Shown: positions 1,131 to 26,459 of the stretch, in pieces
Numbering within the stretch: position 1 is the first letter of the stretch
How the letters are laid out: every line of letters begins with the position of its first letter
Assembly (NCBI GenBank): GCA_945900945.1
Contig: CAMDKL010000058.1
Coordinates: 1 to 33,783 of the forward strand
Direction: 5' to 3'
Length of the DNA stretch: 33,783 nucleotides
DNA from: Pirellula staleyi DSM 6068
GTDB taxonomy: Bacteria; Planctomycetota; Planctomycetia; Pirellulales; Pirellulaceae
Program-made: the position numbers and the translations under genes
The notes under the pieces: model-generated
Database searches by the model: none
What the model was told of the DNA's origin: nothing
Seen by the model: only the letters and a program-made list of their open reading frames with translations

Positions 1131-1235
1131 AAGCATCGTGCGGAAAATTACTGTCGTGGCCGACGCTGCCACCGTCGGCTCGGATGCTAGCAGCATCCGC
1201 CACGTTGGGACACTTGTTTTCCGTACGATGCTAAG
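1131..1235. repeat. Palindromic element A (REPIN/MITE-like)
   Basis: The outer arms are AGCATCGTGCGGAAAA (from 1132) and the reverse complement of AGCATCGTACGGAAAA (ending 1233). The pairing continues with mismatches to a shared TGTC about 24 bases in. Inside lie two smaller hairpins, CCGAC...GTCGG and CGGATGCT-agc-AGCATCCG. The element starts directly after the TAA stop of the serine hydrolase (1236-1238, minus strand). The arms match elements B and C closely and D/E more distantly. It may act as a transcription terminator for the hydrolase gene, although there is no strong U-run. Confidence 0.85.
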
Positions 1236-2333
1236 TTATTTTTCGATTGCAGAAATGCGATCGGACGCGAGTTGGCGGGGGTGGTTTTTAAGCGTGCCAG
1301 CGGGCAATGTTGTTAGTACCACGCAAACTCGATCTCGCTCGGGGTCCGCCCAAGCGATCGTACCGGTGGAGCCCGTGTGGCCGAAGGTCTTGTCCGAACC
1401 GCTGGGACAGATTGTACTCATACCTACATCCAATCCTAGACCGCGTGACTCTAGCCCCACCGGGTTGTGATTGCGAATCATTAGTTTGGCGACGTCGGGA
1501 CGAAAGATCTTGCCCGTGGGCTGCATGAATTCTTCGAGAAAGAGTCCGATGTCCGATGCTGACGCATGAGCACCGCCCCATGGTGCACCTAGGCCTCGCC
1601 AGTAGGAACTATTCCAATCCCAATCTCGAGAATCAGGCGATCCGCCACCCGATTCGACTGCTCCGAATTCCACTTGACATGCCATCGTCTCCTCGGCCTT
1701 CAATCTTCCCATTCCAAATGCCGAGTGATGCATCTCAAGCGGCTGAAGAACGGTCTTATCAATAAACTCCTTGAACTCGACCCCCGAAATTCGCTGAGCG
1801 ATTTCGATCGCAAGTACAATGGCCATACTTGAGTATTCGTATTGAGTTCCAGGCTCAAAATGCAAAGGGACACGAATGGCCGCTTTGACGAATTCTGAAA
1901 AAGGAGCATGACACATTCGCAAAAGCGAGTTTTCCGGCAACTGGTCAGGAAGCCCAGAAACATGGGTTAGTAAATGCCTAATCGTAACCCGGTCCTTGGC
2001 GTAACCATTGAATTCCGGTATGTACCTTTTTACAGTGTCATCCAGATCGAATTTTCCTTGATCGAACAACGTCATCAAAGCGGCAATCGCAATCGGCTTG
2101 GAGATCGAGCCTAACAGGAAAGACGAGTCAACGGATTTGGCCTCACCGAATGCACGATGGAGTATCCATTTTCCAAGACGAGCATAGATGACCGCTGCGC
2201 GAACTTGCCCACTTGCTACAGCGCTCGCAAGGACGCTCGCCGCCTCATCCAACTTGTCGCCATTCAACATCGCAAACACCGGCCTCGTTATAAACGCACT
2301 AACTCCACAACCTAATAAAGTTCTACGCTTCAT
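1236..2333 (-). CDS. Beta-lactamase-family serine hydrolase (class C / esterase type)
   Basis: This 365-residue protein belongs to the penicillin-binding-protein-like serine hydrolases (class C beta-lactamase, D-aminopeptidase, EstB-type esterase). The SxxK motif is S76-I-S-K79, a Y167-S-S motif follows, and HTGSTG near the C-terminus fills the KTG-like position. The start is set at the ATG giving [10 protein letters not shown]: a twin-arginine-like, hydrophobic leader containing LLGC, so the protein is probably exported and may be lipidated at Cys9. A longer frame from 2372 would add 13 residues before this leader and seems less likely. It overlaps the end of tgt by 11 bp, implying co-transcription from the tgt promoter. 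The 3' end abuts palindromic element A. The substrate cannot be told from sequence; beta-lactam hydrolysis is only one option. Confidence 0.9.
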
Positions 2334-3447
2334 GACATTTCTCACTGGAAGCCAGTTTTCTTCGCTGCTCAATCAAAAACTCAGTATATCGATCTTCTTC
2401 TATCGCTTGCCTCGCCCAACCCATGAGCCGTTGATAGAAAGTCAAATTGTGAATAGACAATAACATTGGACCGAGCATCTCGTCCGCTTGGAATAAGTGC
2501 CGTATGTAGGCTCGGCTATGCCTACAAGCCAAACAAGGGCAATCCGTTTCGATCGGTGAGTCATCTCTTGCATGGCAAAGATTCCGCATCTTCAGCGGGC
2601 CTTCGGCGGTAAACGCTGACGCATTGCGTCCGTTGCGAGTCGGCATCACGCAGTCAAACATGTCGATCCCGCGTGCGATCCCCTCGACCAGATCGATGGG
2701 CCGACCAACGCCCATCAAATAGCGAGGCTGATCGTTTGGCAGAACAGGGCAAATCTCATCTAGAATCCGGTACATCTCGGCCGGAGGCTCACCGACGCTC
2801 AAACCTCCCACCGCGTAGCCATCAAACCCAATTCCGATGAGTTGCTCAGCGCATTGGATGCGCAACTCTGGGTTGAGGCCACCTTGAACGATTGCGAATT
2901 TAGCCTGATCCATTCGTATAGCAGCATCCTTGCACCGCCGTGCCCAACGGACGCTGCGATCACTGGCATTCTTTACGGCTTCGTCGGTTGCGGGTAACGC
3001 AATCACTTGGTCCAAAACCATCGCAATGTCGCTACCTAACTTTTCCTGTATGAGCATCGAATCTTCAGGACGCAAGTGAATCGTCGAACCATCCAAGTGC
3101 GACTTGAATGTTGCACCATCCTCAGTGACTTTGTTCATGTCTCCGAGTGAAAAAATTTGGAAACCACCGCTGTCGGTCAAGATAGGTTTGTCCCAGCCCA
3201 TGAATCGATGCAAGCCACCGAGCTCCGCTATCAGCTCACTGCTGGGCCGCAACGACAAATGGTAGGTGTTACCAAGTAGAATCGTAGCGCCGGTGTTGGC
3301 AACTTGATCGATAGTCAAGCCCTTGACAGTCCCCTGCGTCCCGACGGGCATGAACGCGGGCGTTTCTACAACGCCATGTGGCAATTGCAATCGACCTCGT
3401 CGAGCCATGGTTTTGGTATCCGCATGAATCAAATCAAACGGAAACAT
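2323..3447 (-). CDS. tgt: Queuine/preQ1 tRNA-guanine transglycosylase
   Basis: Tgt exchanges guanine 34 in the anticodon wobble position of GUN tRNAs for preQ1, the first tRNA-bound step of queuosine formation. Diagnostic segments are [40 protein letters not shown] and [17 protein letters not shown], which contains the catalytic aspartate. The zinc site DCPCLAC followed by a downstream H is near the C-terminus. Length (374 residues) is typical. I chose the ATG at 3447 ([11 protein letters not shown]) because family members begin at this point; in-frame starts at 3462 and 3531 would add non-conserved residues. No Shine-Dalgarno sequence is seen. The last 11 bp overlap the start of the serine hydrolase gene, an unrelated function probably carried by read-through. 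The other queuosine genes are not in the window. Confidence 0.96.
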
Positions 3448-3681
3448 ATTCGATCGAACCATAAAAATTAAAAAGCTTTTGAACGAATATGATGTAGCAT
3501 GGCTGCCTGGGCCGAACAGATCCCGAAGCAAAAATCAAGGTGCGCCGCCTTTCCGCTTGACCTTACCCATTTAGAACGAGTTGGGGAATAGCTTTGGGTA
3601 TTAAAAATTCGGTATTGACACGACTTTTTGATAAGCAGTTTTTGTTCCCCTAATTTTTAACAGCCCAGCCTACTGCTCTAG

Positions 3682-4719
3682 TCACAAGAAGCTACTTGCT
3701 CCCGTTTCAGGTTGCGACACGCGAACGATCTGCTTGCCAATGTTTTCACCATGGAGCATTCCCAGAAATGCTTTTGGAGCATTCTCTAATCCGTCGATAA
3801 TACTCTCGCGATGCTGCAGTTCGCCTGTTCCAAGCCATTCGGCCAGTTGCGTGAAGCCTTCTCTGAAACGTGGCGCGTAGTCCATGACGAGGAATCCCTG
3901 GACTTTGGCTCGTTTCTCGATCAGTTTCCATAGGAGCCGCGGACCGAGCTCGGGTTCCGTTAGATTGTACTGGGAGATTTGACCACATACGCAAATGCGA
4001 GCATGAACATTGAGATAGTGAAGGGCCGCATCGGTGAGTTCGCCGCCGACGTTATCGAAATAGACATCGATGCCTTGCGGACAGAGTTCTTTCAGCTTTG
4101 CAAAGTAATTGGTTTCGCTGCGATAGTTAAACGCAGCATCGAAGCCCAGTTTGTCGATTAGAAATCGTACTTTTTCGTCTGTGCCAGCTACCCCTATCAC
4201 GCGACAGCCTTGTAACTTTGCGATCTGGCCAGCGATAGAACCTACGGCCCCTGCCGCGCCGGAGATGAGCACTGTTTCTCCGGGCTTAGGTTGGCCAATG
4301 TCCAAGAGACCAAAAAACGCGGTCAATCCGGGCATTCCAAGCACACCGAGATAAGCTGAGAGCGGGGCAAGTTCACGGTTAACGCGATGAAGATCAGAGC
4401 CGTCACTCATGACAAAATCCTGCCACCCTAACATCCCTTGGACATAGGAACCGTTTGGAAACTTAGCGAGATTCGAGTGCACAACTTGCCCCACGGCGCC
4501 GCCGGTCATCACCGCGCCCAGTTTTACGGGATCAGCATACGAAGCGCGGTCGTTCATACGACCGCGCATGTACGGATCCACTGAGAGAAAGAGCGTTCGG
4601 ATCAAGACTTGACTGGGTCCGGGAACCGGAATCGGTGATTCGATAAGTTTGAAGTCCGATTCCTTGGGCCAACCAATCGGTCGACTGGCAAGGGTGATTT
4701 GGCGGTTTATTTTGTCCAT
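3682..4719 (-). CDS. NADP-dependent oxidoreductase, CurA/leukotriene B4 12-hydroxydehydrogenase type (MDR superfamily)
   Basis: The 345-residue protein is a zinc-independent medium-chain reductase. The N-terminal segment (NRQITLASRPIGWP... and SVDPYMRGRMN at about 46-56) is typical of the CurA / PTGR family. The Rossmann motif GAAGAVGS lies at about 154-161 and a FDNVGGE segment follows in the cofactor domain. Such enzymes reduce alpha,beta-unsaturated carbonyls with NADPH and are usually cytosolic detoxification enzymes. The length matches the family and the ATG at 4719 gives a normal N-terminus. It is divergent from the esterase at 4994; palindromic element C lies in between. Both neighbours on its own strand are functionally unrelated. 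Substrate is unknown. Confidence 0.93.
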   Translation of the reverse strand: MDKINRQITLASRPIGWPKESDFKLIESPIPVPGPSQVLIRTLFLSVDPYMRGRMNDRASYADPVKLGAVMTGGAVGQVVHSNLAKFPNGSYVQGMLGWQDFVMSDGSDLHRVNRELAPLSAYLGVLGMPGLTAFFGLLDIGQPKPGETVLISGAAGAVGSIAGQIAKLQGCRVIGVAGTDEKVRFLIDKLGFDAAFNYRSETNYFAKLKELCPQGIDVYFDNVGGELTDAALHYLNVHARICVCGQISQYNLTEPELGPRLLWKLIEKRAKVQGFLVMDYAPRFREGFTQLAEWLGTGELQHRESIIDGLENAPKAFLGMLHGENIGKQIVRVSQPETGASSFL

Positions 4720-4863
4720 TACTTAGTTGATTCTGAAAGAGAAAAACGTATATTGAATTCTTCGTCGATCGATAATGGTGATACCATGGTGATGCCGCTA
4801 AAAGCTGCTCGCCGAAAACGCAGAGTAGAAAACGATGATCTCCATTTTAACGCATGTGCCGCA

Positions 4864-4970
4864 CTTAGCATCGTGCGATCGTGTATTGTCGTCTTTCGCT
4901 CCGCGAAAGAATGTAAAAACGCTACTTTCGCGGAGCGAAAGGCGACACTTATTTCTCCTCCGATGCTTAG
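4864..4970. repeat. Palindromic element C (REPIN/MITE-like)
   Basis: This is a 107-bp palindrome in the divergent gap between the CurA-like gene and the esterase. The ends are CTTAGCATCG (4864) and the complement of CTAAGCATCG (4970). Further in, both arms carry TGTCG. The interior holds two hairpins, CTTTCGC-tcc-GCGAAAG (4893-4909) and CTTTCGC-gga-GCGAAAG (4925-4941), which are also inverted copies of each other. The TCGCtccGCGA hairpin core is shared with elements D and E. It ends 23 bp before the esterase start codon, so it may separate the two promoters or lie in the esterase 5' UTR. Confidence 0.87.
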
Positions 4971-4993
4971 CGACTCACTTTGCTCGAAGTGCG

Positions 4994-5863: not shown

Positions 5864-5884
5864 ACGGTTATAATAGCAAAGACA

Positions 5885-6838
5885 ATGATTATCCAAAAAA
5901 CAGAAGGACTCATCGCTGCCCCCTTTACCCCCATGCGGTCCGACCGATCAGTGAATCTAGATGTGATCAAAAGTTATGCGAACTGGTTACATAGCAATGG
6001 CGTGGTAGGAGCTTTCATCTGTGGAACGACGGGGGAGGGCATGTCGCTAACGATCGACGAGCGACAGAAAATTGCTGAGCGGTGGATGGCGGTTTCACCC
6101 AAGGGTCTGCGCGTCATCGTTCACGTCGGTCACGCGTCGCTTGCCGATTGTCGGACGCTTGCCGCTCACGCTGCATCGATCGGTGCTGACAGCACTTCTT
6201 ATCTTGCCCCGTTCTTTTTCAGACCGAATGGCGTAGCGGGGCTTGTCGATTGGTGCGTACAAGTCGCATGTGCTGCTCCGCAGCTGCCGTTCTATTACCA
6301 TCAGATTCCATCGATGACCGGCGTAACTTTGCAAGTGAGTGAGTACCTTAGGTTAGCATCCAAGCGAATTCCAAATCTCGCGGGGGTCAAATATACCTTT
6401 GAAGACATTGAGGATTGTACGCGTTGTATTCAACTCGAAAACGGCCGCTTCGATATCCTCTTCGGGCGAGACGAAATGCTGTTAACCTCGCTGGGTTTCG
6501 GAGTTCGTGGTGCCGTCGGTAGCACGTATAACTTCGCCGCTCCCATTTATCAGGCTCTGACTGTGGCCTACGATCGCGGCGATCTACCGAAGGCTGCTGA
6601 GTTGCAAGCGTTGTCCGTGCGGATGATTAACGTTCTCGTCGCGGGCAGTCCCTTTCCAACCGCGACGTTCAAGTGGTTTATGAGTCAGGTTGGGATTGAT
6701 TGCGGGCCAGCACGATTACCGCTCCAATACCCAACGCCAGTGCAGATTGCTGCTCTGGAAGCCAACCTAGAAACAACCGGTGTCTATGACTGGATTAAAA
6801 GGGCACCTGCGGTGCTAAAGCCAGTAGCCCGGGGCTAG
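5885..6838 (+). CDS. nanA: N-acetylneuraminate lyase (dihydrodipicolinate synthase/NAL superfamily)
   Basis: This class I aldolase splits N-acetylneuraminate into N-acetylmannosamine and pyruvate in the cytosol. The family motif GTTGEG lies at 47-52 and binds the pyruvate carboxylate. Tyr138 in FYYHQIPSMTG and the Schiff-base lysine Lys169 in GVKYTFED are in place, and FGRDEM follows. The FYYHQIP segment favours the neuraminate lyase branch over DapA, in which this region differs. Length (317 residues) is close to the usual 290-310. The gene sits 21 bp after the esterase and 32 bp before the nanM-like gene, and two sialidases follow, so the context agrees with the function. No Shine-Dalgarno sequence precedes the ATG. 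A different 2-keto acid aldolase activity remains possible. Confidence 0.93.
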   Translation: MIIQKTEGLIAAPFTPMRSDRSVNLDVIKSYANWLHSNGVVGAFICGTTGEGMSLTIDERQKIAERWMAVSPKGLRVIVHVGHASLADCRTLAAHAASIGADSTSYLAPFFFRPNGVAGLVDWCVQVACAAPQLPFYYHQIPSMTGVTLQVSEYLRLASKRIPNLAGVKYTFEDIEDCTRCIQLENGRFDILFGRDEMLLTSLGFGVRGAVGSTYNFAAPIYQALTVAYDRGDLPKAAELQALSVRMINVLVAGSPFPTATFKWFMSQVGIDCGPARLPLQYPTPVQIAALEANLETTGVYDWIKRAPAVLKPVARG

Positions 6839-6864
6839 CGCCCACCGGTTCACGATAACGCAAA

Positions 6865-6869
6865 AGGAG
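6865..6869 (+). promoter_or_regulatory. Ribosome binding site that bears on the nanM start
   Basis: AGGAG lies here with only 1 bp before the ATG at 6871, which is too close for normal initiation. The third codon is TTG (6877), which would be 7 bp from the site, a normal spacing. Translation may therefore begin at the TTG. This is one of the few clear Shine-Dalgarno sequences in the window. Confidence 0.5.
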
Positions 6870-6870
6870 A

Positions 6871-7989
6871 ATGGCATTGGGGTTCAACATTGCAAAGATA
6901 GATTTTCGAAAAATAAAATGTCATGCACCTCGTACATGGATTCTGTGTACATTCTCCATCGCGATCTCAATTGCATCCTACTGTACTGCGGACGATGCCA
7001 TGAACTGGAGCGAGTTGCCTTCGCTGCCAGATCCTAATGGTTTTGCGGGTCCATTCGTCGGCACTCACAACGGAGTATTGCTCGTGGCTGGCGGAGCAAA
7101 CTTTCCTGACCAGAAACCATGGCAAGGAGGTGCTAAGGTCTGGTACGACTCTGTCTTCGTCCTGGAACGACCTGATGGTGAATGGAAAGCTGTTGGTAAA
7201 CTTCCAAGACCGCTCGGCTACGGTGTCTCGGTTAACACCAAAGATGGTGTTGTCTGCATCGGCGGAAGCGATACAACGAGACATTACGTAGATGCCTTTG
7301 TCATGTCGTGGGGGAATGGCGAGGTAAAAACGTCACCCCTTCCTTCGCTGCCAAAACCGTGCGCGAATTTCTGTGGTGCAATGCTTGGCAATACGATATT
7401 GGTGGCTGGTGGTATCGAAACGCCGAGTTCGACGAGTACGCTCAAGACATTTTGGTCGCTGGATCTGGATTCAAATCATCCGAGTTGGCAAGAGCTTGAA
7501 GCCTGGCCGGGACCGGCGCGGATGCTGGCTGTCGCTGCGGTACAGGACAGGTCATTCTTTCTCGTAGGCGGTGCTGATTTAGCGAGTGACGCGAATGGCA
7601 AACCGGTTCGACGTTATCTGACCGACGCTTATCGATACCAACCTGGTCAGGGATGGACCCGCATCGCTGACCTGCCGCGTCCTTCGGTTGCTGCTCCTTC
7701 GCCGGCGCCAGCCTTTGGGCAATCACGATTTCTCATTCTCGGCGGCGATGATGGTTCACTCGTTGATTTTAAACCACCGGAGCGACATCCGGGATTCCCG
7801 AAGAGCATATTGGATTACAATACTACTACTGGAATTTGGAAATCGAACGGAGAAATGCCTGTGGCGCATGTAACCACCACGATGACTTTATGGAACCATC
7901 GGTTTGTAATGCCGACGGGCGAAGTCCGACCGGGAGTTCGCTCGCCTGCGGTTTGGGCTATTGACTATCCGTTACTAACTACACGCTGA
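6871..7989 (+). CDS. nanM: Kelch-repeat N-acetylneuraminate epimerase (NanM-like, cyclically permuted mutarotase)
   Basis: NanM-type beta-propellers interconvert the alpha and beta anomers of sialic acid outside the cytoplasm, speeding use of the alpha form released by sialidase. The 372-residue protein has an N-terminal hydrophobic segment (TWILCTFSIAISIASYC) acting as a signal. It then shows repeated kelch blades with GG pairs: LLVAGGANFPD, VCIGGSD, ILVAGGIET, FLVGGADL and FLILGGDDGS, each followed by a conserved Trp/Tyr strand. GGANFPDQKPWQGG is characteristic of the permuted mutarotase subfamily. The start may be ATG 6871 or TTG 6877; see the ribosome binding site entry. It lies 32 bp after nanA and is followed by the nanH-like sialidase. 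The assignment rests on family plus context; other kelch proteins are less likely. Confidence 0.9.
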   Translation: MALGFNIAKIDFRKIKCHAPRTWILCTFSIAISIASYCTADDAMNWSELPSLPDPNGFAGPFVGTHNGVLLVAGGANFPDQKPWQGGAKVWYDSVFVLERPDGEWKAVGKLPRPLGYGVSVNTKDGVVCIGGSDTTRHYVDAFVMSWGNGEVKTSPLPSLPKPCANFCGAMLGNTILVAGGIETPSSTSTLKTFWSLDLDSNHPSWQELEAWPGPARMLAVAAVQDRSFFLVGGADLASDANGKPVRRYLTDAYRYQPGQGWTRIADLPRPSVAAPSPAPAFGQSRFLILGGDDGSLVDFKPPERHPGFPKSILDYNTTTGIWKSNGEMPVAHVTTTMTLWNHRFVMPTGEVRPGVRSPAVWAIDYPLLTTR

Positions 7990-8009
7990 TGATTTAAATA
8001 GCAAATTTA

Positions 8010-8035
8010 CATCGATAGACAGGATGCACAGAATG
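8010..8035 (+). repeat. Short repeat related to GxxExxY leader, direct copy at 9339-9363
   Basis: The sequence CATCGATAGACAGGATG followed by CACAGAATG resembles 9339-9363 (CATCGATAAACAGGATG then GACAGGATCG) with about four differences. The two direct copies bracket the first sialidase gene. The ACAGGATNNACAGGAT pattern is the same type that encodes the MDLQDLQD-like leader of the GxxExxY fragments at 20.8 and 33.5 kb. Confidence 0.65.
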
Positions 8036-8067
8036 AATTTCCGTACCCGGACTAGTGGACTAGAAAA

Positions 8068-9225
8068 ATGAAAACCATTCTCACCTCACTGCTATGCATC
8101 CTCTGCCAACACTTCGTCTGCGCACAATCGTTCATGGACTCAACGGAGGTCTTTCCGGCAGGTATGAACGGTATTGCTTTGTATCGCATACCGGGCATCG
8201 TCGCGACGACCAAAGGAACTGTGCTCGCGTATTGCGAAGCGAGAAAGAATAGCAAATCGGACTGGGGCGAGATTGAGGTCCATCTGCGTCGTTCTACCGA
8301 TGGCGGCAAGACGTGGAATGCCCCGCAGAACATTGCTCATGATGGTTCACGTATTGAGGGGAACCCCCAAAAAAAAGAGGGCGGTGAACGTGAGCAAACC
8401 GTCAACAATCCAGTTGCTATCGTCGATCGAGAAACAGGTGCGATCGAGTTTTTGTACTGTATCAATTATGCGCGATGCTTCTCGATGCGCAGCACCGATG
8501 ACGGACTCTCATGGAGCAAACCCATTGAGATTACCAACGCATTCGAACCGTTTAGGGCGAAATACGACTGGAAAGTGATTGCTACTGGCCCTGGACATGG
8601 CATTCAGCTCAAGAATGGACGTCTCGTCGTCCCCATTTGGCTTGCCTATGGGAAACTGGGGGATCACCATCCTTCCGCTGCGGGAACGATTACCAGTGAC
8701 GACCACGGCAAGACTTGGCAAGCTGGCGATCTTGCCGTTCCGAATGAAGGTGAGTTCGGGGATCCAAACGAAACGATTCTTGCTGAATTGTCAGACGGCC
8801 GTGTCATGTTGGTGTCGCGCAGTGTCTCGAAACCAAATCGCAAGTTGATCTCGTACAGTCCGGATGGCGCTCGCAACTGGAGCACGCCAGTCTTTCACGA
8901 ACAGCTTTGGGAGCCGATTTGCATGGCGAGCATAATTGCTCATCCGTCCGCTTCTGGCATGTTGATCTTTTCGAATCCGCATAGTCTTGGGCGAGATAAG
9001 GATGGCAAGGAGATTCCTGCTGGACGTGGCAAGCGCGAGAACCTCTCTATCAAACTGAGTCGCGATTACGGAAAAACCTGGCCAATCAGCAAGACACTTG
9101 AACCTGGCCCGAGCGCTTACTCGGATCTTGCTGTTCTAGCTGACGGTACAATCCTTTGCCTCTACGAAGGTGATAACAAAATAGTCTCAACACGTTTCAA
9201 TATAGAATGGATTGTCACACGCTGA
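8068..9225 (+). CDS. nanH: Exo-alpha-sialidase (GH33, BNR repeat), secreted
   Basis: Sialidases release terminal sialic acid from glycoconjugates. The 385-residue protein begins with a signal peptide (MKTILTSLLCILCQHFVCAQ). YRIPG at 39-43 supplies the first active-site arginine (Arg40), the candidate acid Asp65 lies in NSKSDWGE, and a late Tyr lies in PGPSAYSDLAVL. Asp boxes (S-x-D-x-G-x-T-W) are seen as STDGGKTW at 76-83, STDDGLSW, SDDHGKTW, SPDGARNW and SRDYGKTW, which matches a six-bladed propeller. Length is typical for a single-domain bacterial sialidase; no carbohydrate-binding module is visible. A run of C5A8 at 8364-8376 inside the gene is a potential slippage site, though the frame is intact. 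It follows nanM after 78 bp containing a short repeat, and is the extracellular first step for the nanM-nanA pathway. Confidence 0.93.
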   Translation: MKTILTSLLCILCQHFVCAQSFMDSTEVFPAGMNGIALYRIPGIVATTKGTVLAYCEARKNSKSDWGEIEVHLRRSTDGGKTWNAPQNIAHDGSRIEGNPQKKEGGEREQTVNNPVAIVDRETGAIEFLYCINYARCFSMRSTDDGLSWSKPIEITNAFEPFRAKYDWKVIATGPGHGIQLKNGRLVVPIWLAYGKLGDHHPSAAGTITSDDHGKTWQAGDLAVPNEGEFGDPNETILAELSDGRVMLVSRSVSKPNRKLISYSPDGARNWSTPVFHEQLWEPICMASIIAHPSASGMLIFSNPHSLGRDKDGKEIPAGRGKRENLSIKLSRDYGKTWPISKTLEPGPSAYSDLAVLADGTILCLYEGDNKIVSTRFNIEWIVTR

Positions 9226-9299
9226 TTTCCTAGGCTCCGAAAACTGGACTTGGGCCGGTGGCCCATTGCAGGTACGGGAAGCAGAGCTTCCTGAGTGTG

Positions 9300-9325
9300 C
9301 GTTCCCAAGCTGGAGCTTGGGAACG
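9300..9325. repeat. REP-like palindrome between the two sialidase genes
   Basis: CGTTCCCAAGCT, two bases, then AGCTTGGGAACG forms a perfect 12-bp stem. It is a short intergenic palindrome of the kind dispersed through planctomycete and other genomes. It could act as a weak terminator or mRNA stabiliser downstream of the first sialidase. Confidence 0.85.
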
Positions 9326-9338
9326 AGTGAAAAAGAAC

Positions 9339-9396
9339 ATCGATAAACAGGATGGACAGGATCGAATGCCCTATCCTGTAAATCCTGTTCATCCAT
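9339..9396. repeat. Inverted pair of GxxExxY leader-like repeats
   Basis: Arms AACAGGATGGACAGGAT (9346-9362) and ATCCTGTAAATCCTGTT (9373-9389) pair with two mismatches around a 10-base loop. On the minus strand an ATG at 9396 opens MDEQDLQDR, resembling the start of the GxxExxY fragments at 20810 and 33530, but no GxxExxY core follows. This is probably a leftover of such a gene or of the repeat from which its leader arose. Confidence 0.7.
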
Positions 9397-9498
9397 GTAG
9401 GTTAAGATAAGCCTTTCCCATTTCGATCCTGGTGAATTTCGTGATCTAAGCGATCGAACCTTACTAATTTAGTTTTGCCTCTCATTGGAGCATTCTCG

Positions 9499-10557
9499 AT
9501 GCGATTCAATTGGTTTCTGGTGTTCGTTCTGCTGTCGAGTTCTACGCGCAGTGTCTCGGCTGAGTCACCTGGGATGCTAAAATCCGAGTTCATTTATGAA
9601 TCGGCGCCTTTTCCGTCGTGCCACGCTTCCACGATTGTCGAGCCGAAAGGTGGTGGGTTGGTCGCCGCTTGGTTTGGTGGTACGTACGAGAAGCATCCCG
9701 ACGTCGGCATTTGGGTTTCTCGTAGGGAGGAGGGTGTGTGGACCGTGCCAGTTGAAGTCGCAAACGGCATACAGTATCGAAAAGCAGACGGTGCGGTGTT
9801 GCGTCATCCGACTTGGAATCCTGTGCTTTTTCAGCCAAACAATGGACCGCTCATGCTCTTCTACAAGGCCGGTCCGGATCCACAGACATGGTGGGGTATG
9901 CTCACGACATCCACCGATGGCGGAAAAACTTGGGAACAACCAAGACGTTTGCCGGAGGGGATTTTTGGTCCCATCAAGAACAAACCGGTTCAGCTCGCAA
10001 ACGGTGAAATCCTTTGCCCCACTAGCAATGAGACAGATGAGAAACCGAGCAAGTGGGCCATCTACTTTGAACGCACACGTGACCTGGGGCGTACCTGGGA
10101 ACGGACCGATTTGCTCCATGACGGTGTCGCTATCCAAGCGATCCAGCCAAGTGTCCTCTTCCTTGGTGGCGACAAGCTCATGGCGCTTGGGCGTACCCGA
10201 CAAGGCAAAGTATTCAAGATCACATCCGACAATGCTGGCTCAACCTGGGGCGCGATCTCGCTAACGGAATTACCTAACCCGAGTTCAGGCACCGATGCCG
10301 TGACGCTCAAGGATGGACGCCACTTACTTATTTACAACCACACAGCCAAAGGCCGTTCGCCTCTTAACCTCGCCATCTCGAAGGATGGGAACAGCTGGCA
10401 GGCCGCCCTGGATCTTGAAACCGATCCAGGCGAATACAGCTACCCCGCCATCGTGCAGACCAGCGATGGACTTGTTCATATCACTTACACCTGGAAGCGT
10501 CAGCGTATCAAGCATGCAATCGTGGACCCAGCGAAGCTAACGCCTCGACCGATTTAA
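9499..10557 (+). CDS. Second secreted sialidase-family (BNR_2) protein
   Basis: The 352-residue protein starts at the ATG giving MRFNWFLVFVLLSSS, a clear signal peptide; an earlier in-frame start at 9475 would only lengthen it. FPSCHASTIVE and LVAAWFGGTYEKHPDVGIWVSR are typical of the BNR_2 exo-alpha-sialidase-like group, as is RHPTWNPVLF. Asp boxes are STDGGKTWE, TRDLGRTWE, SDNAGSTWG and SKDGNSWQ. In this group the usual YRIP motif is absent, so the true substrate may differ from that of the first sialidase (other nonulosonic acids, or a rhamnosidase-like or sulfated glycan activity). It is the last gene of the plus-strand sialic-acid cluster, 273 bp after the first sialidase, with repeats in the gap, and converges on kup. 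Sialidase activity itself is uncertain. Confidence 0.87.
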   Translation: MRFNWFLVFVLLSSSTRSVSAESPGMLKSEFIYESAPFPSCHASTIVEPKGGGLVAAWFGGTYEKHPDVGIWVSRREEGVWTVPVEVANGIQYRKADGAVLRHPTWNPVLFQPNNGPLMLFYKAGPDPQTWWGMLTTSTDGGKTWEQPRRLPEGIFGPIKNKPVQLANGEILCPTSNETDEKPSKWAIYFERTRDLGRTWERTDLLHDGVAIQAIQPSVLFLGGDKLMALGRTRQGKVFKITSDNAGSTWGAISLTELPNPSSGTDAVTLKDGRHLLIYNHTAKGRSPLNLAISKDGNSWQAALDLETDPGEYSYPAIVQTSDGLVHITYTWKRQRIKHAIVDPAKLTPRPI

Positions 10558-12931: not shown

Positions 12932-13107
12932 GATGCAATTTTTCCAAGGGGAAATTGGCGGGCAGAGGATTCTGTTAACTTATCATCATTTACTGGCCTA
13001 GGATAAACGCAAGAGCCTAACCCATAATGGGGGTGATGTTTTCGAGTAGTTTGCGTGGTTTTTGGTCAGCAGAATACGCAAATCAATAATCCGAGATAGC
13101 ATCTGGC

Positions 13108-13464
13108 AAGCATCGAGCGGAAAATTACTGTCGATTCTTAATTGTGGCATAGGCTGGTAGCCTTTTTATACCCCACAATTTTTTTGTACGACTCACACGA
13201 GCTTGTCTTGTGGGTGAGAGAGTTTGGGAACCAGATCGTGCCTACCCAGAATTCCTACTTTCAAAATTGCTGGACGCCGGCGGCGGCCAGCAATTTTGAA
13301 AATAGAGGGAAGACGCCTGGTTGGGAAATATCTGGTTACCAAACTTCGCTTCCTGCCAGGAGAGCGGTATCAGCTGATTTAAGGGGTATAAAAAGGCTTC
13401 TAGCCTGAAATTTTACGCCCACAGGCTGGAAGCCTATGCCACTTATTTTCCGCACGATGCTAAG
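13108..13464. repeat. Palindromic element B, composite (REPIN/MITE-like with nested repeats)
   Basis: The ends are AAGCATCGAGCGGAAAAT (left) and the complement of CTTAGCATCGTGCGGAAAAT (right), matching the arms of element A. Nested inside is a second inverted pair: GTGGCATAGGCT...AGCCTTTTTATACCCC (13144-13174) against 13383-13442, where the same words recur inverted with an insertion. A third pair, TTTCAAAATTGCTGG / CCAGCAATTTTGAAAA, surrounds a GC-rich loop at about 13259-13302. The open frames that cross this region (for example 13142-13408) mirror repeat sequence and are not convincing genes. With about 357 bp it is much longer than A, C, D and E and looks like a family member into which other repeats have inserted. 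Confidence 0.8.
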
Positions 13465-16790: not shown

Positions 16791-16792
16791 TT

Positions 16793-18238: not shown

Positions 18239-18279
18239 AGCGTCGACTCCGCGAAACGTACTGTTAGCTGCCAGAGTGT

Positions 18280-18388
18280 CCTAAGGACGGTTCGATAATT
18301 AACTGTCGCATTGTCGCTGATCGCTCCGCGATCAGAACGTTGGATCGCGGAGCGATCCACGACAATAATTTCTCGAACGGTCCTAAGG
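18280..18388. repeat. Palindromic element D, 98 bp identical to element E in inverse orientation
   Basis: Bases 18290-18387 are the exact reverse complement of 26353-26450. The ends are CCTAAGGAC...GTCCTAAGG. Inside are two hairpins, CTGATCGC-tcc-GCGATCAG (18317-18335) and GGATCGC-gga-GCGATCC (18342-18358), framed by TGTCG/CGACA. The TAG stop of the molybdopterin oxidoreductase gene (18383-18385, minus strand) is part of the element end. The other side lies about 40 bp before the astD start. It may act as a terminator between the two genes. Confidence 0.95.
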
Positions 18389-20573: not shown

Positions 20574-20589
20574 CAATTCGATGATAGAT

Positions 20590-20810
20590 TCACTTGTGTC
20601 GTGTGAATCGTTTGGTTTCGAGTTTCGGATTGCCAAAATTGATTAGCAGGCCGACGTCGATTCCAGTTGCCATTAGGTAGTTAATAATCTGGGCCTGGTG
20701 CTCGTGAGCGATCGCCTTTGCAGCCTGATGACTTCGAATGCACAACCGATGATTTTTTCATAGATTTCTCCAAACTGGTTGTCGGATTGACGATCATCCT
20801 GTATATCCAT
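20590..20810 (-). pseudogene. GxxExxY-family protein, internally deleted and frameshifted
   Basis: The ATG at 20810 opens MDIQDDRQSDNQFGEIYEKI, continuing IGCAFEVIRLQ, the N-terminal third of a GxxExxY-family protein. After that the frame shifts: the in-frame product ends at 20673 in unrelated residues. In another frame, AKAIAHEHQAQIINYLMATG and then IDVGLLINFGNPKLETKRF continues the family's C-terminus to a TGA at 20590. About 60 central residues of the usual protein (including the catalytic-looking core) are missing. The 5' flank CCGGAGAAACGAACATGGAT is shared with the fragment at 33530. GxxExxY proteins are small nuclease-fold-like proteins of unknown role, common in planctomycetes. This copy is certainly non-functional as a normal member. 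Confidence 0.88.
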
Positions 20811-21013
20811 GTTCGTTTCTCCGGTAGCGTGTCGCTCAAGCCGCCTGGCCTGAGCTAGGTAAATGGTTGGGCCTTCGGCCCGAAAACTATCGAAAGGTTT
20901 GCGTATTCTAACTCTCAAAGCACTAGGCTTGATTGGATTTGGAAGTTACATTCCTGCGAACTAGTTTTTCGCATTCCGGCGGCGAAGCGTCCGCACACTT
21001 TAATTTCCAGATT

Positions 21014-23107
21014 ATGGCTCGAGAACTTTCGACGATTAGAAATATCGGTATTATTGCTCATATTGACGCTGGCAAGACCACGGTTACTGAGCAAATGCTT
21101 TACATGAGCGGTACCAAGCATCGCGCCGGAGCCGTCGATTCTGGCACCACCGAAACCGACGACGATCCCGAGGAGCAGCAGCGAGGAATTACGATTTTCG
21201 CTGCTTGCGTTACGTTTCATTGGCGGGATTGCACCGTTAACTTGTTGGATACCCCTGGGCACGTTGACTTCACTGCCGAAGTCGAACGCTGTTTGCGAGT
21301 TCTCGACGGTGCTGTGGTGGTTTTCAGTGCCCGTGAAGGGGTCGAGGCACAGAGTGAGACGGTCTGGCGACAGGCTAATAAATATGTCGTTCCTCGCATC
21401 GTTTTTATCAACAAACTAGATCGCGAGGGTGCCGATTTTTATCGCGTTTTAGAGGAGATCGGGCCGCGACTCAACGCAGATCCCGTCGCGATCCAGATTC
21501 CAGTTGGACAAGGCCCGAGCCATACCAATGACCCATTCCAAGGCATCATCGATTTGATCGATTTGAAACTATTACGTTTCAACAAGGAGGACCAGGGCAA
21601 GACGGTCCTGGTGGAAGAAATTCCAAAGGAGCTACTGGGCGACGCGATGGATTGGCGGAACGTATTGCTAGAAAAACTTTATCTTCACAGCAGCGAGATG
21701 ATGGAGTTGGCAATGGAGGAAAAACCGATCCCCAACGACATGATTCGAAGAGCCTTGCGAGACGCTTGCATCGCATTGAAACTACAGCCGGTCCTTTGCG
21801 GCTCTGCACTTCACGGCGCTGGTGTGCAGCCTTTGCTCGATGGCGTCGCATCCTATCTTCCATGTCCATTGGATCGACCTCCGGTAATGGGAGTAGATCC
21901 CAAGAAACGAGACAAGGCGCTTCAACGCAAACCCGATCCCAAGGAACCGTTCTGTGCACTCGTATTCAAAGTCTTGCCAGCCAAGACCGGTGATATGTTT
22001 TGGATTCGAGTCTATTCGGGCAAGCTCGATTCGAATTCACGCGTCTACAATCCCAATCGTGACAAAAAAGAAAACGTAGCCCAGCTTTGGCAGATTCACG
22101 CCACGAAACGCGAACGCCAAGGGCAGATCGATGCGCTCGAATGCGGCGACATCGCACTTATTATTGGCCCTCGCGACTCGATTACCGGCGATACTTTGTG
22201 CGACACCCGCGACATGATCGAACTGCCGTCGATTCAGTTTGCTCAATCGGTGATTTCGATGGCCATCGAACCGGAAAACGCGACGGAACGAAAAAAGCTC
22301 GCCGAAGTCTTAGAAATGCGAAAGCGTCAGGACCCAACGTTTCACGCGATTGAGAATGCCGAGTCAGGGCAGACAATTATCAGCGGCATGGGCGAATTGC
22401 ATTTAGAAGTGATCAAGAACAGTCTCGTTCGCGACTACCATCTCAATGTTAAGTTCTATAGGCCAAGAGTTAGTTACCGAGAAACGGTTGGCAGTGCCAT
22501 TGAGGTTATTGGAGAATGCAATCGGCAGGTCGGTTCGCAACAGTTGTTTGCGAGACTGAGGGTGCGATTTGAACCGCTTGAAGATGTGTCGGGCAAAGTC
22601 ATTATTTTCGACCGAACTCCAGTCGAAAAAATGCTGCCAGAGATCCTGCGTCAAACCGCATTGGAGGAGCTGCGAAATCGATCGGAGGGTGGCGGCCTCA
22701 TTGGCTCCTTCCCTTTGACTGGCATGCGAATCAGTATTTTAGGAGGCGAAATTGCGGAAGTAGGATCGGACGAAGTTGCATTCAAAATCGCAGCCAACGA
22801 CGCTTTCGACGAGGGGTTGAAGGCGGGTGGCCCGACGTTGCTAGAGCCAGTCATGAAGATGGAAATCACGACTCCTCCAGATTACTTAGGCGAAATTGTG
22901 GGTGATCTACAACAACGCCGCGGGCTGATCGAACGCACCGAAGCTCGGGGAGCCTCATCGAGCATTACCGCGTTGGCCCCGCTCAAAGAATTGTTTGGTT
23001 ACTCGAGTGCTATCCGTTCTCTCAGTCAAGGTCGCGCGGGCTGTTCGATGGAGCCACACGGATATCAAATTGCCCCGAAAGAAGATGCTGAAGGGTTTGC
23101 GCTGTAA
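21014..23107 (+). CDS. Elongation factor G paralogue (translational GTPase)
   Basis: EF-G drives ribosome translocation or recycling with GTP hydrolysis. The 697-residue protein has all five domains. GTPase motifs are AHIDAGKTT (15-23), RGITI, DTPGHVDF, NKLD and GSALHGAG. Domain IV carries YRETV and the domain V end is intact. The ATG at 21014 (MARELSTIRNIGII) is the natural start; the frame runs back to 20933 without conservation. Switch I reads DSGTTETDDDPEEQQRGITI rather than the canonical ATMDWMEQEQERGITI, so this looks like a diverged paralogue, comparable with the second EF-Gs known in planctomycetes and spirochaetes (spdEFG type). No ribosomal genes are near. Its stop overlaps the tmk start in TAATG, so the two are translationally coupled. 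Which paralogue class it is needs a tree. Confidence 0.93.
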   Translation: MARELSTIRNIGIIAHIDAGKTTVTEQMLYMSGTKHRAGAVDSGTTETDDDPEEQQRGITIFAACVTFHWRDCTVNLLDTPGHVDFTAEVERCLRVLDGAVVVFSAREGVEAQSETVWRQANKYVVPRIVFINKLDREGADFYRVLEEIGPRLNADPVAIQIPVGQGPSHTNDPFQGIIDLIDLKLLRFNKEDQGKTVLVEEIPKELLGDAMDWRNVLLEKLYLHSSEMMELAMEEKPIPNDMIRRALRDACIALKLQPVLCGSALHGAGVQPLLDGVASYLPCPLDRPPVMGVDPKKRDKALQRKPDPKEPFCALVFKVLPAKTGDMFWIRVYSGKLDSNSRVYNPNRDKKENVAQLWQIHATKRERQGQIDALECGDIALIIGPRDSITGDTLCDTRDMIELPSIQFAQSVISMAIEPENATERKKLAEVLEMRKRQDPTFHAIENAESGQTIISGMGELHLEVIKNSLVRDYHLNVKFYRPRVSYRETVGSAIEVIGECNRQVGSQQLFARLRVRFEPLEDVSGKVIIFDRTPVEKMLPEILRQTALEELRNRSEGGGLIGSFPLTGMRISILGGEIAEVGSDEVAFKIAANDAFDEGLKAGGPTLLEPVMKMEITTPPDYLGEIVGDLQQRRGLIERTEARGASSSITALAPLKELFGYSSAIRSLSQGRAGCSMEPHGYQIAPKEDAEGFAL

Positions 23108-23712
23108 TGTTTATTTCCTTGGACGGTATCGACGGTGCTGGCAAATCGACTCAAATCGATTTGCTTCGCCAGCATCTCGTTGCGAAGGGAGCATCGGTCG
23201 AGTGCTTCCGAGATCCAGGGTCGACGAAACTTGGCGAGGCCGTTCGAGAAATACTCCTGCACCGCGAGGACATCCCGCTCTCTAATACCTCGGAGATGCT
23301 CCTATACATGGCAGCCCGAGCGCAACTCGTGTCGGAACAATTGCGTCCGGCTCTCGACGCCGGGACGACCGTTGTCTGTGACCGATTTTTGCTCGCCAAC
23401 GTCGTCTATCAGGGGGTAGCAGGCGGACTCAATATCGACGACCTATGGGCAGTCGGTTTTTGCGCGACGGGTGGCCTCTCACCCGACGCGACGATCGTTC
23501 TCGATATCGATCCGGAGGTTGCGGTCAAGCGGTTGCAAAGGGGTCCTGACCGACTTGAGAAAAGGGGACTCGAGTACTTTCGTCTCGTCCGAAACGGCTT
23601 CTTGGAACAGATATCCCGCGCTGGCGGGCAAGTTATGGTTGTCAACGCAGATCAAAGCATCGAACAAATCCATCGGCAAATCGTTGAGTTTATCGATCTA
23701 CTGCTCTCCTAG
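23107..23712 (+). CDS. tmk: Thymidylate kinase
   Basis: Tmk phosphorylates dTMP to dTDP for DNA synthesis. The P-loop GIDGAGKST is at residues 7-15. The substrate motif FRDPGSTKLGEAVR takes the place of the usual 'REPGGT' segment, with an aspartate for the glutamate. The VCDRF motif is the usual DR(Y/F) motif, and a LID region with GPDRLEKRGLEYF follows. Length (201 residues) is normal. The ATG overlaps the TAA of the EF-G paralogue in TAATG. Because the LID and the DP(G) motif deviate a little, a related nucleotide kinase is possible, but tmk is by far the best fit. Confidence 0.93.
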   Translation: MFISLDGIDGAGKSTQIDLLRQHLVAKGASVECFRDPGSTKLGEAVREILLHREDIPLSNTSEMLLYMAARAQLVSEQLRPALDAGTTVVCDRFLLANVVYQGVAGGLNIDDLWAVGFCATGGLSPDATIVLDIDPEVAVKRLQRGPDRLEKRGLEYFRLVRNGFLEQISRAGGQVMVVNADQSIEQIHRQIVEFIDLLLS

Positions 23713-23748
23713 TGCGCCGTCCAACAATAAAAAATGGGATGCAACACA

Positions 23749-23801
23749 GTGTAGCTCGGCACTCTGTGCCGAGAAAAACGGCAAGGAGTGCCGTTCTACA
23801 C
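23749..23801. repeat. Palindromic repeat downstream of tmk
   Basis: The outer arms GTGTAG and CTACAC enclose two hairpins, CTCGGCAC-tct-GTGCCGAG and ACGGCA-agga-GTGCCGT. This double-hairpin layout is like elements A-E but the sequence is different. It is a second or third family of small palindromic elements in this window, and may terminate the EF-G/tmk unit. The remaining bases to 23952 show no gene. Confidence 0.8.
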
Positions 23802-23952
23802 GGTGGCTGGTACCCGACCTAAGGGGTGTTTCGTTTTTAAACAAAGGGGAAACCTTGAGATCGTTTACTTTCCTTTGCCGTCGAACCGAAACTTTTCAAC
23901 CTGTGCGATTGGATTGGTAAGCGATGGTGAATAACTACTGGCTTGATTGCAG

Positions 23953-24426
23953 ATGAACACACACGATGTAGCTGCTTTTTTTGTTTACGGGACCCTCAAG
24001 AAATCGTACCTTCGGGGTGGACTGTGGCCTCGCAAACCGATACGAATCTTAGCGGGTGTCATTCAATCGGACTTGTATGATTTAGGGCCCTATCCCGCTG
24101 CTTTGCCGGGTACCAATTGGCTACTTGGCGAATTATGGGAGTTCAACCATGCAGATTTGGACCCAACCATCGCGGAACTCGACCTAATCGAGGGATACCA
24201 TCCTTCGAGAGAAAACAATGAATATGTGCGTCAGATTGTGACGGTGGAATTCGGACTTACCGAGTCGAAACCGGAGCGAGTGCGAGCCTATGCCTATTTT
24301 GCAGCCCAGACCAAACGATTGGCCTTAGCACGCAAAATTGAGCCCTTTTTAGAATCCTTAGGTAGACCCGTTGCTGCCTGGCCGGACGCGGGGACCCGGG
24401 TCCCGACAAGTTTTTCTGAAGAATAA
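23953..24426 (+). CDS. Gamma-glutamylcyclotransferase-like (AIG2/GGCT fold) protein
   Basis: The 157-residue protein has the substrate loop YGTLK (12-16), the glycine-rich LYDLGPYPAAL strand and the catalytic glutamate in LDLIEGYHP (Glu80). This is the BtrG/GGCT-like fold, whose members make 5-oxoproline from gamma-glutamyl amines or act as small-molecule cyclotransferases. The ATG at 23953 is preferred; an in-frame TTG at 23947 would only add two residues. The protein looks cytosolic with no signal. It stands alone between the tmk repeat and the TPR gene, with nothing in context to tell the substrate. Confidence 0.88.
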   Translation: MNTHDVAAFFVYGTLKKSYLRGGLWPRKPIRILAGVIQSDLYDLGPYPAALPGTNWLLGELWEFNHADLDPTIAELDLIEGYHPSRENNEYVRQIVTVEFGLTESKPERVRAYAYFAAQTKRLALARKIEPFLESLGRPVAAWPDAGTRVPTSFSEE

Positions 24427-24557
24427 GAAGTCCAATCCGAACTTTCTTTCGCAATGGCCTAGACGCTACAATGGGATGTGATCCCCATAGCATCCATCGC
24501 TAGAATTGTTTGGTGGAACGCTTGCAATCGACATTCCATGCATGACTAGGTTTCGAA

Positions 24558-26357
24558 ATGACTCAATCCAAAATGAATCCACCACCCGTTGTTCGTCGCA
24601 GGACAATCAACACACGCCGTCGTTTGTTTGCCAGTCTTTTGGTGTCAGGGACGATGTTTCTTGCTTGTCCGGTGCATGCCCAAGAAGGAGCAACGCAGAT
24701 ACCCGAAGGCAAAAAACCGGCCGAAATCGTTGTTCCCAAATCGTACGACGGTGACGCCGACTTCGAAGAAGCATGTCGGCTGCGGCTAAATGTCGAATCG
24801 GTCGACACGCTCAAGGAGATTATTACGCTCGCAAAATCAGCGGTTGAAAAGGGACTCGACAAAGCGGACATGGAAGCGGCAAAGAAATTGATTGCCGCGT
24901 CGTTCATGCAGAAGACCCAAGAGGTAGCTCGAACCCTGACACCCGGTATGTCGGCCTCGAGAAAAAACAAACTTTTAAACGACCTTTTGGGCGACTTGGG
25001 CGAAGCGATTGAATTCGATCCCTTGCTGGCTGACGCATATCTAATGAAAGCGGAACTGCACGCACGTCGCAAGGAACCGGATGCGGCAAGAGATGTTGCC
25101 AATGAAGGTATTAGTGAATTAGCGGCCTTCGTTGATTCCAAACTTGCTGAACCCGACATGAAGGTCAAGCTCAGCAGGCTTTTGATGATTCGTGCGGGGC
25201 TGCAATCCGAAAGAGACGAAGCCGTTTCCGATTTAAAGCGATCCATCCAGTACGATCCAAACAACCAAGCAGGTATTCTGGTTCTACGAGAGAGTCTTGT
25301 CCAAAACAAAAGGGAAGTAGAAGCTCTGGAGTTCTTCCAGAAATTGCTCGAATCGAACGCCGAAAACGAACTGGTAATCCAAAACACCGCAGAGCTTTTG
25401 GCTTCGGACAAGGATCGGATCAAGGATGCGTTGGAATTGCTCAGTGCCAAAATAAAGATTCTGCCAAACTCAATTGCACTGCTGAAGACGCGCGCACGAG
25501 TGCACGCTGTAAATCAAGAGCCAGACTTAGCAAAAGCTGACCTCGATCGAGTCCTGGAATTATCCAAAGACGACATTGAGGGACTTCTCTATCGGGCGAG
25601 GGTCGCCATCCAAGCAGAGGATCTCGATGCAGCGAAAAAAGATGTCGATACTGCTTTCGAGCTTGCCCCGAATAGAATCGATACAATCCTGTTGCGATCC
25701 ACCATCGCGGCGGAGCAGAAGCGGTTTGGAGATGCGATCGGAGACTTGCTTCTGATCATCAAGAACCAACCCAAGGATCAGCCGAATGTTGGCCTCCTCA
25801 TGCAACTCGGGCTGCTATACTCGATGGACGATCGTCCCTCGCAAGCGATCAAAGTATTTGGGCAAGTCATCAATCTCGATTCGGAGTACTGGCAAGCCTA
25901 TCGAATGCGAGCAGACACTTTATTGGCCATGAAAGATTATTCCAAGGCGATTGCAGATTTTGAAAAGGCACTGGAGCTTGCCCCCAAAAACGATGCAGAA
26001 CGTTCTGGCATATTGAATAACCTGTCTTGGACATTATCGACCAGTCTGGCGGATGACGTTCGAGACGGAAAGCGGGCCTTAGAGCTTGGACTGGAAGCCT
26101 GCGAACTAACGGATTTCAAGAAACCACATATCCTGAGTACGTTGGCGGCTGCTTACGCAGAAACTGGCCAATTTGACAAAGCCGTAGAGTGGTCCGAAAA
26201 AGCGGTTCAGTTAGGTCGCGAAACCAAGGAGCCGCAACTGGAGCAGTTGGAAGCAGAGCTGGAAAGCTACCGAAAAAAAGAACCTTGGCGGGAAAAGACC
26301 GAAGCCAAAGAAAACAAGATCCCACTCGTACCGCGAAGTTCTGGCGTCGACACTTAG
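24558..26357 (+). CDS. Secreted tetratricopeptide-repeat protein
   Basis: The 599-residue product starts with a basic stretch (RRRTINTRRRLF) and a hydrophobic signal segment (ASLLVSGTMFLACPVHAQ), so it is probably periplasmic or associated with the cell membrane. From about residue 140 onward, TPR units recur, for example AIEFDPLLADAYLMKAELHA, AKADLDRVLELSKDDIEGLLYRARVA, DVDTAFELAPNRI, KVFGQVINLDSEYWQAYRMRAD and KAIADFEKALELAPKNDAERSGI. At least seven to eight units can be seen. The C-terminal tail is charged. TPR arrays serve in protein binding; no catalytic domain is visible. The stop TAG (26355-26357) is contributed by the end of palindromic element E. It converges on slyX. The function is unknown. 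Confidence 0.9.
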   Translation: MTQSKMNPPPVVRRRTINTRRRLFASLLVSGTMFLACPVHAQEGATQIPEGKKPAEIVVPKSYDGDADFEEACRLRLNVESVDTLKEIITLAKSAVEKGLDKADMEAAKKLIAASFMQKTQEVARTLTPGMSASRKNKLLNDLLGDLGEAIEFDPLLADAYLMKAELHARRKEPDAARDVANEGISELAAFVDSKLAEPDMKVKLSRLLMIRAGLQSERDEAVSDLKRSIQYDPNNQAGILVLRESLVQNKREVEALEFFQKLLESNAENELVIQNTAELLASDKDRIKDALELLSAKIKILPNSIALLKTRARVHAVNQEPDLAKADLDRVLELSKDDIEGLLYRARVAIQAEDLDAAKKDVDTAFELAPNRIDTILLRSTIAAEQKRFGDAIGDLLLIIKNQPKDQPNVGLLMQLGLLYSMDDRPSQAIKVFGQVINLDSEYWQAYRMRADTLLAMKDYSKAIADFEKALELAPKNDAERSGILNNLSWTLSTSLADDVRDGKRALELGLEACELTDFKKPHILSTLAAAYAETGQFDKAVEWSEKAVQLGRETKEPQLEQLEAELESYRKKEPWREKTEAKENKIPLVPRSSGVDT

Positions 26358-26459
26358 GACCGTTCGAGAAATTATTGTCGTGGATCGCTCCGCGATCCAA
26401 CGTTCTGATCGCGGAGCGATCAGCGACAATGCGACAGTTAATTATCGAACGGTCGTTAA
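26353..26459. repeat. Palindromic element E, 98 bp identical to D in inverse orientation
   Basis: Bases 26353-26450 are identical to the complement of 18290-18387. It fills the gap between the convergent TPR gene, whose TAG lies in the element's CTTAGGACC end, and slyX, whose stop starts 2 bp beyond the element. It contains the same two TCGCtccGCGA-type hairpins. Its position between converging genes suits a two-way terminator. Confidence 0.95.

Follow-up and report, generated by a model that had tools for sequence, protein, structure and literature searches.

Short palindromic elements of planctomycetes as probable miniature transposons that duplicate TWA and leave stop codons intact

Several groups of small mobile elements come close to the sequences considered here. 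Correia is a small non-autonomous bacterial element, Correia, ERIC, Nezha and RUP make TA duplications, and the IS1031 subgroup duplicates TNA. REPINs, which have their boundary at a tagged hairpin, are not known to make a target duplication, and neither are HUH enzymes. In the published passages compared, the target-site duplication (TSD) of PIF/Harbinger transposons is TWA and the target of NuwaII is C|TNA|G (PMC4482050), the PIF/Harbinger - IS5 (PHIS) superfamily mobilises Tourist-like miniature inverted-repeat transposable elements (MITEs) (PMC2836001), and IS5 duplicates Py-T-A-Pu, mostly CTAG (PMC5493358). A further source, in the part compared, names ERIC and Nezha among small non-autonomous bacterial elements and reports that repetitive extragenic palindromic sequences (REPs) occur in Planctomycetes and that terminal inverted repeat (TIR) repeats adjoin tyrosine transposases (Di Nocera 2013, PMC3733652). 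The present analysis concerns five short palindromic elements, A to E, in a stretch of 33,783 nucleotides from Pirellula staleyi DSM 6068 (GCA_945900945.1, contig CAMDKL010000058.1), referred to in its whole length as the window. Taken together, the evidence is very probably best explained by a MITE family which is moved by a transposase acting in trans, duplicates a TWA target and regenerates the stop codons on which it lands.

All five elements are copies of one family with TIRs of about 24 bp, and their presence at the places given by an earlier sequence-only reading goes beyond chance. In the source genome of the window (G000, 6.47 Mb in 313 contigs, hereafter the own genome), the pattern of the ends has 151 matches with up to three mismatches against 29 for a reversed control, and a stricter pattern of TWA plus end has 43 matches with up to two mismatches against none in the control; a two-ended pattern, TAAGSATCG..CGATSCTTA, found no match there. 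Two types of end can be distinguished, GCATCGWGCGG... and, in D and E, GGACCGTTCG..., which with some variation read GCATCGWGCGGAAAATWASTGTCG in the A/B/C type and GGACCGTTCGAGAAATTATTGTCG in the D/E type. The interiors are more diverse, with GACGCTGCC.. in A, GGCATAGGCTTCCAGCC in B, of which a short and a long form exist, CTTTCGCTCCGCGAAAG in C and GATCGCTCCGCGATC in D and E, and like ends enclose unlike interiors in other planctomycetes too. One of these is represented by the metagenome-assembled genome (MAG) Dive96_bin2.57 (hereafter Dive96). Folding of elements A, C, D and E and of a single copy from Dive96 gives long imperfect hairpins (z -3.7 to -8.8 over eight strands).

For counting, elements of the own genome were drawn from the window and 54 loci, which had been picked from searches with D and A and from the first 100 of the 151 end matches. 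An exact scan of genome contigs gave at least 115 stretches. Among the 80 listed, 73 are from Dive96, five from DLM2.Bin10 and two from SZUA-33, all titled planctomycetes, and the 73 loci of Dive96 supplied its elements. Candidate pairs of ends numbered 42 in the own genome and 79 in Dive96; after 11 and 4 false pairings had been dropped by hand, 31 and 75 elements with both ends were left, while one-ended copies stayed outside the counts. The length is 99 bp in 17 of the 31 own elements and exactly 119 bp in 66 of the 75 from Dive96, the interior of which differs again from those of A to E. The first base of the element is a G in 105 of the 106.

The bases flanking these elements point to a duplicated target. 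Identical triplets stand on both sides of 20 of the 31 own elements and 57 of the 75 in Dive96, compared with means of 10.1 and 26.9 and maxima of 19 and 41 when the flanks were re-paired in 2000 shuffles. Among elements with TWA on both sides, 19 of 21 in the own genome and 52 of 56 in Dive96 have the same middle base in the two triplets, an agreement that would not arise if TWA belonged to the element itself. The preferred target before insertion is RC|TWA|GY (RCTWAGY). Further evidence comes from SZUA-33 (G450), a MAG closely related to Dive96, with identities of 95.5% and 97.2% in two blocks of 3.0 and 2.6 kb. The flanks of 80 Dive96 candidate pairs were compared with 20 SZUA-33 stretches and a few loci, and five sites were examined closely. 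Three are empty in SZUA-33, where the triplet stands once and not twice as in Dive96: with [119] standing for the element, Dive96 GGGTAA[119]TAAAGAGG corresponds to GGGTAAAGAGG, TTTACCTA[119]CTAATACAAG to TTTACCGAATACAAG (with one substitution), and GCGGCCAA[119]CAAGGAGCG to GCGGCCAAGGAGCG. Neither L228 nor L182 gave a clean empty site in this pair of genomes. The insertion duplicates three bases, TWA. A further locus, L243, is filled in both genomes; the extra 135 bp found there were considered as a copy of this element and rejected.

The copies also appear, from their similarity to one another, to have moved recently. The 119-bp elements of Dive96 deviate from their consensus by a median of 1.7%, with 49 of the 66 at 3% or less, and the seven D/E copies of the own genome are pairwise 94-98% identical. 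One pair of 119-bp copies is only 42% identical, which makes it probable that the 66 include a few that are misoriented or not close to the others.

In the cases examined, insertion of such an element on a stop codon left the protein unaltered in length. In all 22 stop-overlapping cases (nine in the own genome, 13 in Dive96) a stop was present before the insertion and the length of the protein is unchanged after it, so no gene owes its stop to the element. In 13 of them the triplet is the TAA stop itself and stays TAA, in seven T|TAG stays TAG, and in two, one of which is E in the window, T|TAA becomes T|TAG by way of the element's own G. Since TWA can be a whole TAA or contain the first two bases of TAG, and since the element starts with G from either end, insertion on a stop regenerates a stop. 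The genes concerned look like real genes, judging by Pfam matches in eight of nine proteins of the own genome and in eight of the ten tested among the 13 of Dive96 (16 of 19 in total), some of which nearly reach the last residue, as with a lactate/malate dehydrogenase (145-308 of 313) and a NamZ C-terminus (627-776 of 783). This offers a simple, checkable rule for small transposons gathering at bacterial gene ends, namely that the duplicated target and the element's first base together rebuild the stop, and further elements that target TWA and end in G should follow it as well.

The positions in the window (Table 1) follow this scheme. The outer limits of the sequence-only reading need correction, as the last triplet on each side is the duplicated target and lies outside the element, and its arm motif CTTAG is to be read as C, the target TTA and then G, with which the element begins. 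For D and E the overlap with a stop codon is confirmed, with the TAG in the element's end as had been claimed; A, which had been placed directly at a stop, is separated from it by 1 bp. A scan of the window against Rfam at gathering scores gave no match.

Table 1. Coordinates of the five elements, their flanking target triplets and the adjoining stop codons in the window
Feature	Position	Strand	Description
Element A	1133..1231	.	99 bp; TIR GCATCGTGCGGAAAATTACTGTCG; interior GACGCTGCC.. double hairpin
TSD of A	left 1130..1132, right 1232-1234	.	TAA / TAA
Stop of gene beside A	1236..1238	-	TAA; 1 bp past right target copy; no overlap
Element C	4868..4966	.	99 bp; interior CTTTCGCTCCGCGAAAG double hairpin
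TSD of C	4865-4867, 4967-4969		TTA / TTA
Element B	13110..13460	.	351 bp; long form of GGCATAGGCTTCCAGCC type
Flanks of B	13107-13109, 13461-13463		CAA / TAA; triplets differ
Element D	18285..18383	.	99 bp; TIR GGACCGTTCGAGAAATTATTGTCG; interior GATCGCTCCGCGATC double hairpin
TSD of D	18282-18284, 18384-18386		TAA / TAA
Stop of molybdopterin oxidoreductase gene	18383..18385	-	TAG; TA of the TSD and terminal G of D; stop before insertion also TAG
Element E	26357..26455	.	99 bp; D subfamily, orientation opposite to D
TSD of E	26354-26356, 26456-26458		TTA / TTA
Stop of tetratricopeptide repeat (TPR) protein gene	26355..26357	+	TAG; TA of the TSD and first G of E; stop before insertion TAA

The sequence-only reading had let its case stand or fall with an excess of ends at stop codons across the genome, and such an excess exists. 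Genes were called with a home-made codon-usage caller on sequences from which the elements had been removed, and one Dive96 element lay too close to the edge of its locus, which leaves 74. In the own genome nine of 31 targets lie on a stop, one inside a gene and 21 between genes, and the 74 of Dive96 divide into 13, 4 and 57. Among control TWA sites at the same loci, 1.7% (own) and 3.4% (Dive96) overlap a stop, from which 0.5 and 2.6 cases are expected, or 1.4 and 5.7 when the expectation is taken from non-coding TWA sites. There was no stop case among the dropped pairs, and the counts of 9 and 13 therefore hold while their fractions go up. With the window left out, seven of the 26 remaining own targets still overlap a stop.

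Much of this excess can be accounted for without any interest of the element in stop codons. When sites are weighted by RCTWAGY, Dive96 has 13 cases against 8.6 expected of 70 non-coding targets (p 0.08), and among its targets on a stop or up to 50 bp downstream 13 of 30 lie on the stop itself where a fraction of 0.50 is expected, which is no excess (p 0.82 and 0.77 at limits of 30 and 100 bp). By the same weighting, nine cases stand against 1.8 expected of 30 in the own genome (p 4e-5). Leaving out the window gives seven of 25 (p 5e-4), and on a stop or within 50 bp the own genome has nine of 14 against 0.35 (p 0.025; 0.016 at 30 bp and 0.009 at 100 bp). The motif and the tolerance of stops thus account for the overlap in Dive96, and a modest excess remains in the genome of the window. 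Of the targeting or survival at stop codons suggested earlier, the excess is real and is largely a by-product of RCTWAGY and the loss of insertions inside genes. Since a stop is regenerated, stop codons would be harmless targets within gene space, and the controls suggest that copies accumulate there and in the 3' flanks of genes. One may go further and see an adaptation in the TWA duplication and the fixed terminal G, by which either end of the element would repair the stop in both registers, TAA and T-TAG stops would serve as safe harbours, and some active preference for gene ends would be at work in the window's genome; we offer this as a speculation that is unlikely to hold in full.

That selection retains copies behind genes as bidirectional transcription terminators or as stabilisers of mRNA 3' ends is a doubtful alternative, to which the stable folding described above and the orientation of neighbouring genes in Dive96 lend some weight: its elements lie in 13 convergent and six divergent gaps, compared with 186 and 493 in the control (Fisher p 3e-4). 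This bias is equally expected if insertions are purged from promoter regions, and the own genome does not show it (2 against 4; control 103 against 139; p 1). A simple terminator scan does not support the replacement of terminators which had been suggested, since T-tailed hairpins number one in C, two in B and none in A, D and E, and the totals of terminator-like sites stay close to what shuffling gives on average (22 against 15.7, standard deviation (sd) 3.9; 24 against 23.4, sd 4.3). Active recognition of gene ends or stop codons by the element or its transposase, going beyond RCTWAGY, also appears quite unlikely. The figures of the own genome speak for such recognition, also close to gene ends, but Dive96 with its larger number of copies has at most a slight excess overall and none near the 3' ends of genes, and the remainder in the own genome could come from longer selection on its copies.

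The preferred account is a transposition model in which A to E are non-autonomous DNA transposons with a palindromic interior that varies from one subfamily to another. They would be moved by a transposase supplied in trans, the likeliest candidate being a DDE enzyme of the IS5 / PIF-Harbinger type, which would cut RC|TWA|GY and insert the element with duplication of TWA. At the stop codons hit, TAA is kept in its duplicated copy, and both T|TAA and T|TAG give T|TA+G, which reads TAG. A short element that has long TIRs, duplicates 3 bp and has spread recently is a MITE, and several of the features by which MITEs are recognised are seen here: common TIRs, a short multi-copy element, no intact transposase gene inside the longer elements that were read, and a target duplication with empty sites. 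The TWA duplication, the C|TNA|G target, which is also a mark of PHIS elements, and the likeness to the Py-T-A-Pu of IS5 together make a transposase of the IS5/Harbinger type the likeliest agent.

Several observations weigh against this account. The remainder at stops in the own genome (p 0.009-0.025) is not explained by motif and position, and the flanking triplets are not identical in 11 of 31 own and 18 of 75 Dive96 elements. The empty sites stem from the pair of Dive96 and SZUA-33 and not from the window's genome; none was found within the genus, where the best relative is 77% identical at the gene of D and where the gaps between genes in eight relatives were not alignable by eye. No autonomous copy with these ends was found in searches with the DDE-family profiles PF13359, PF01609 and PF13340, which did not include Y1 (PF01797). 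PF13359 has no match in G000 or G060; PF01609 has three (one in G000, two in G060), all without an end match at up to four mismatches in the flanking 1.5 kb; PF13340 has 16 in four genomes at E values up to 1, three of which exceed the cut-off, all outside G000, and at the six loci inspected no gene lies between such ends. The carrier genomes are fragmented drafts and some DLM2.Bin10 contigs end inside an element, so an autonomous copy may have been lost in assembly. Finally, D/E-type hairpins also occur without these ends in the own genome (L022/L143, L023, L024, L025), and part of the D/E interior may therefore be REP-like and independent of these ends.

This last point also favours reading the elements as REPIN-like or TIR repeats mobilised by a tyrosine (HUH) transposase of the RAYT/TIRYT kind, as do the two inverted hairpins of each element, the several, mostly intergenic copies and the report of REPs in Planctomycetes and of TIR repeats beside tyrosine transposases cited above (PMC3733652). 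The 3-bp target duplication with its empty sites makes it the wrong frame, however. The hairpins of A, B and C were nearly always found within these elements at the fetched own loci, and in 400 kb from contigs without listed end matches six one-mismatch matches of the pattern turned up, none of them a hairpin copy by eye. A REPIN origin, which had been brought up earlier, is thus very improbable. That ordinary palindromes merely happen to sit at three stops is almost certainly wrong in view of the excess in two genomes, even though A is near a stop and not on one, and this dismissal holds as far as the home-made gene calls do.

Some longer elements were considered as autonomous copies and rejected: C120 (2.1 kb) consists of two elements with host genes between them, and in C8 (590 bp) and C32 (677 bp) an insert sits in the inner hairpin. 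These two C-type elements (G000 C8:18564-19153, L094, and C32:32772-33448, L100) carry about 490 and 580 bp in the loop of that hairpin. The inserts have broken frames and by eye resemble the remnant of an IS110-type transposase, two pieces of them had no Pfam match, and the loop may be a landing site for a second mobile element. At L413 and L414 (DLM2.Bin10 and Dive96), a copy of the element lies within about 1.3 kb of a strong IS5-type PF13340 gene without containing it, a proximity that could be fortuitous or could point to where the transposase comes from.

Other variants concern the structure of the copies. The long B-type form is represented by four counted copies of 320-351 bp (13110-13460 in the window, L099:3764-4097, L102:3923-4243 and L133:2972-3291) with the usual ends and about 210-240 bp extra inside. 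Dive96 has a further type of end, GGAGCGTTCG...CGAACGCTCC, at L199:1222-1340 with the bases that follow and at L237:5855-5928 (74 bp), and one 119-bp element is inserted at CAA, adjoining a sequence of the GGAGCGTTCG type. In DLM2.Bin10 (L366, L370, L181:1558-1656) the interior GGAACCTTTTGCGAGGAACTCGCC.. stands between unlike ends of the GGATCGTGCGG and GCAATGAGCGG types.

Among the 60 genomes that were searched as relatives, only the own genome has the TWA-plus-end pattern at up to two mismatches; none of the 26 other genomes of the genus carries it, and a BLAST search with element D at 1e-6 had no match there. A scan of the phylum at up to one mismatch found the pattern in two of 392 genomes. 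SZUA-33 and DLM2.Bin10 have nine and 26 end matches at up to two mismatches, and there was no match in exact scans of viral contigs or in a search of plasmids with one Dive96 copy. Across different planctomycetes, one set of transposon ends recurs around several palindromic interiors that are unrelated to one another.

Two features of the window stand apart from this family. Positions 5885-10557 hold a possible sialic-acid cluster with a protein of the dihydrodipicolinate synthase (DHDPS) family, a kelch protein resembling the NANM epimerase and two BNR-repeat (sialidase-like) proteins. A separate hairpin, GTTCCCAAGCTGGAGCTTGGGAAC, at 9301-9324 lies downstream of a gene ending at 9225 and by eye falls outside the family.

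Neither the family nor the stop-codon rule was found in the open-access literature searched, which does not prove their absence from it, and the main text of a 2024 review of prokaryotic MITEs contains neither 'stop codon' nor 'planctomyc' (PMC10969869). The comparisons that follow draw on passages of the sources named. ERIC, Nezha, RUP and Correia are small, non-autonomous and bacterial like the present family, and the passages on ERIC, Nezha and RUP do not mention neutrality towards stop codons. REPs, REPINs and the TIR repeats associated with TIRYTs share with it short inverted hairpins in intergenic positions, often downstream of genes (PMC3733652), and elements of the present kind can be taken for REPINs by mistake; unlike them, this family makes target duplications, its outer TIRs are conserved across genera, and the GTAG/CGTC tag is not its boundary. 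BrickBuilt, a MITE of Porphyromonas gingivalis with IS5-like ends, has a TSD of varying length (PMC4596501), where that of this family is 3 bp. The IS5 family has an AT-centred target holding TAG or TAA (PMC5493358), as here, but the present TSD is TWA, and the TIR is unlike those in the published passage compared. Eukaryotic PIF/Harbinger elements and NuwaII differ from this family in that it is bacterial and in the lack of PF13359 matches noted above, and they share with it both the TWA duplication and the C|TNA|G target.

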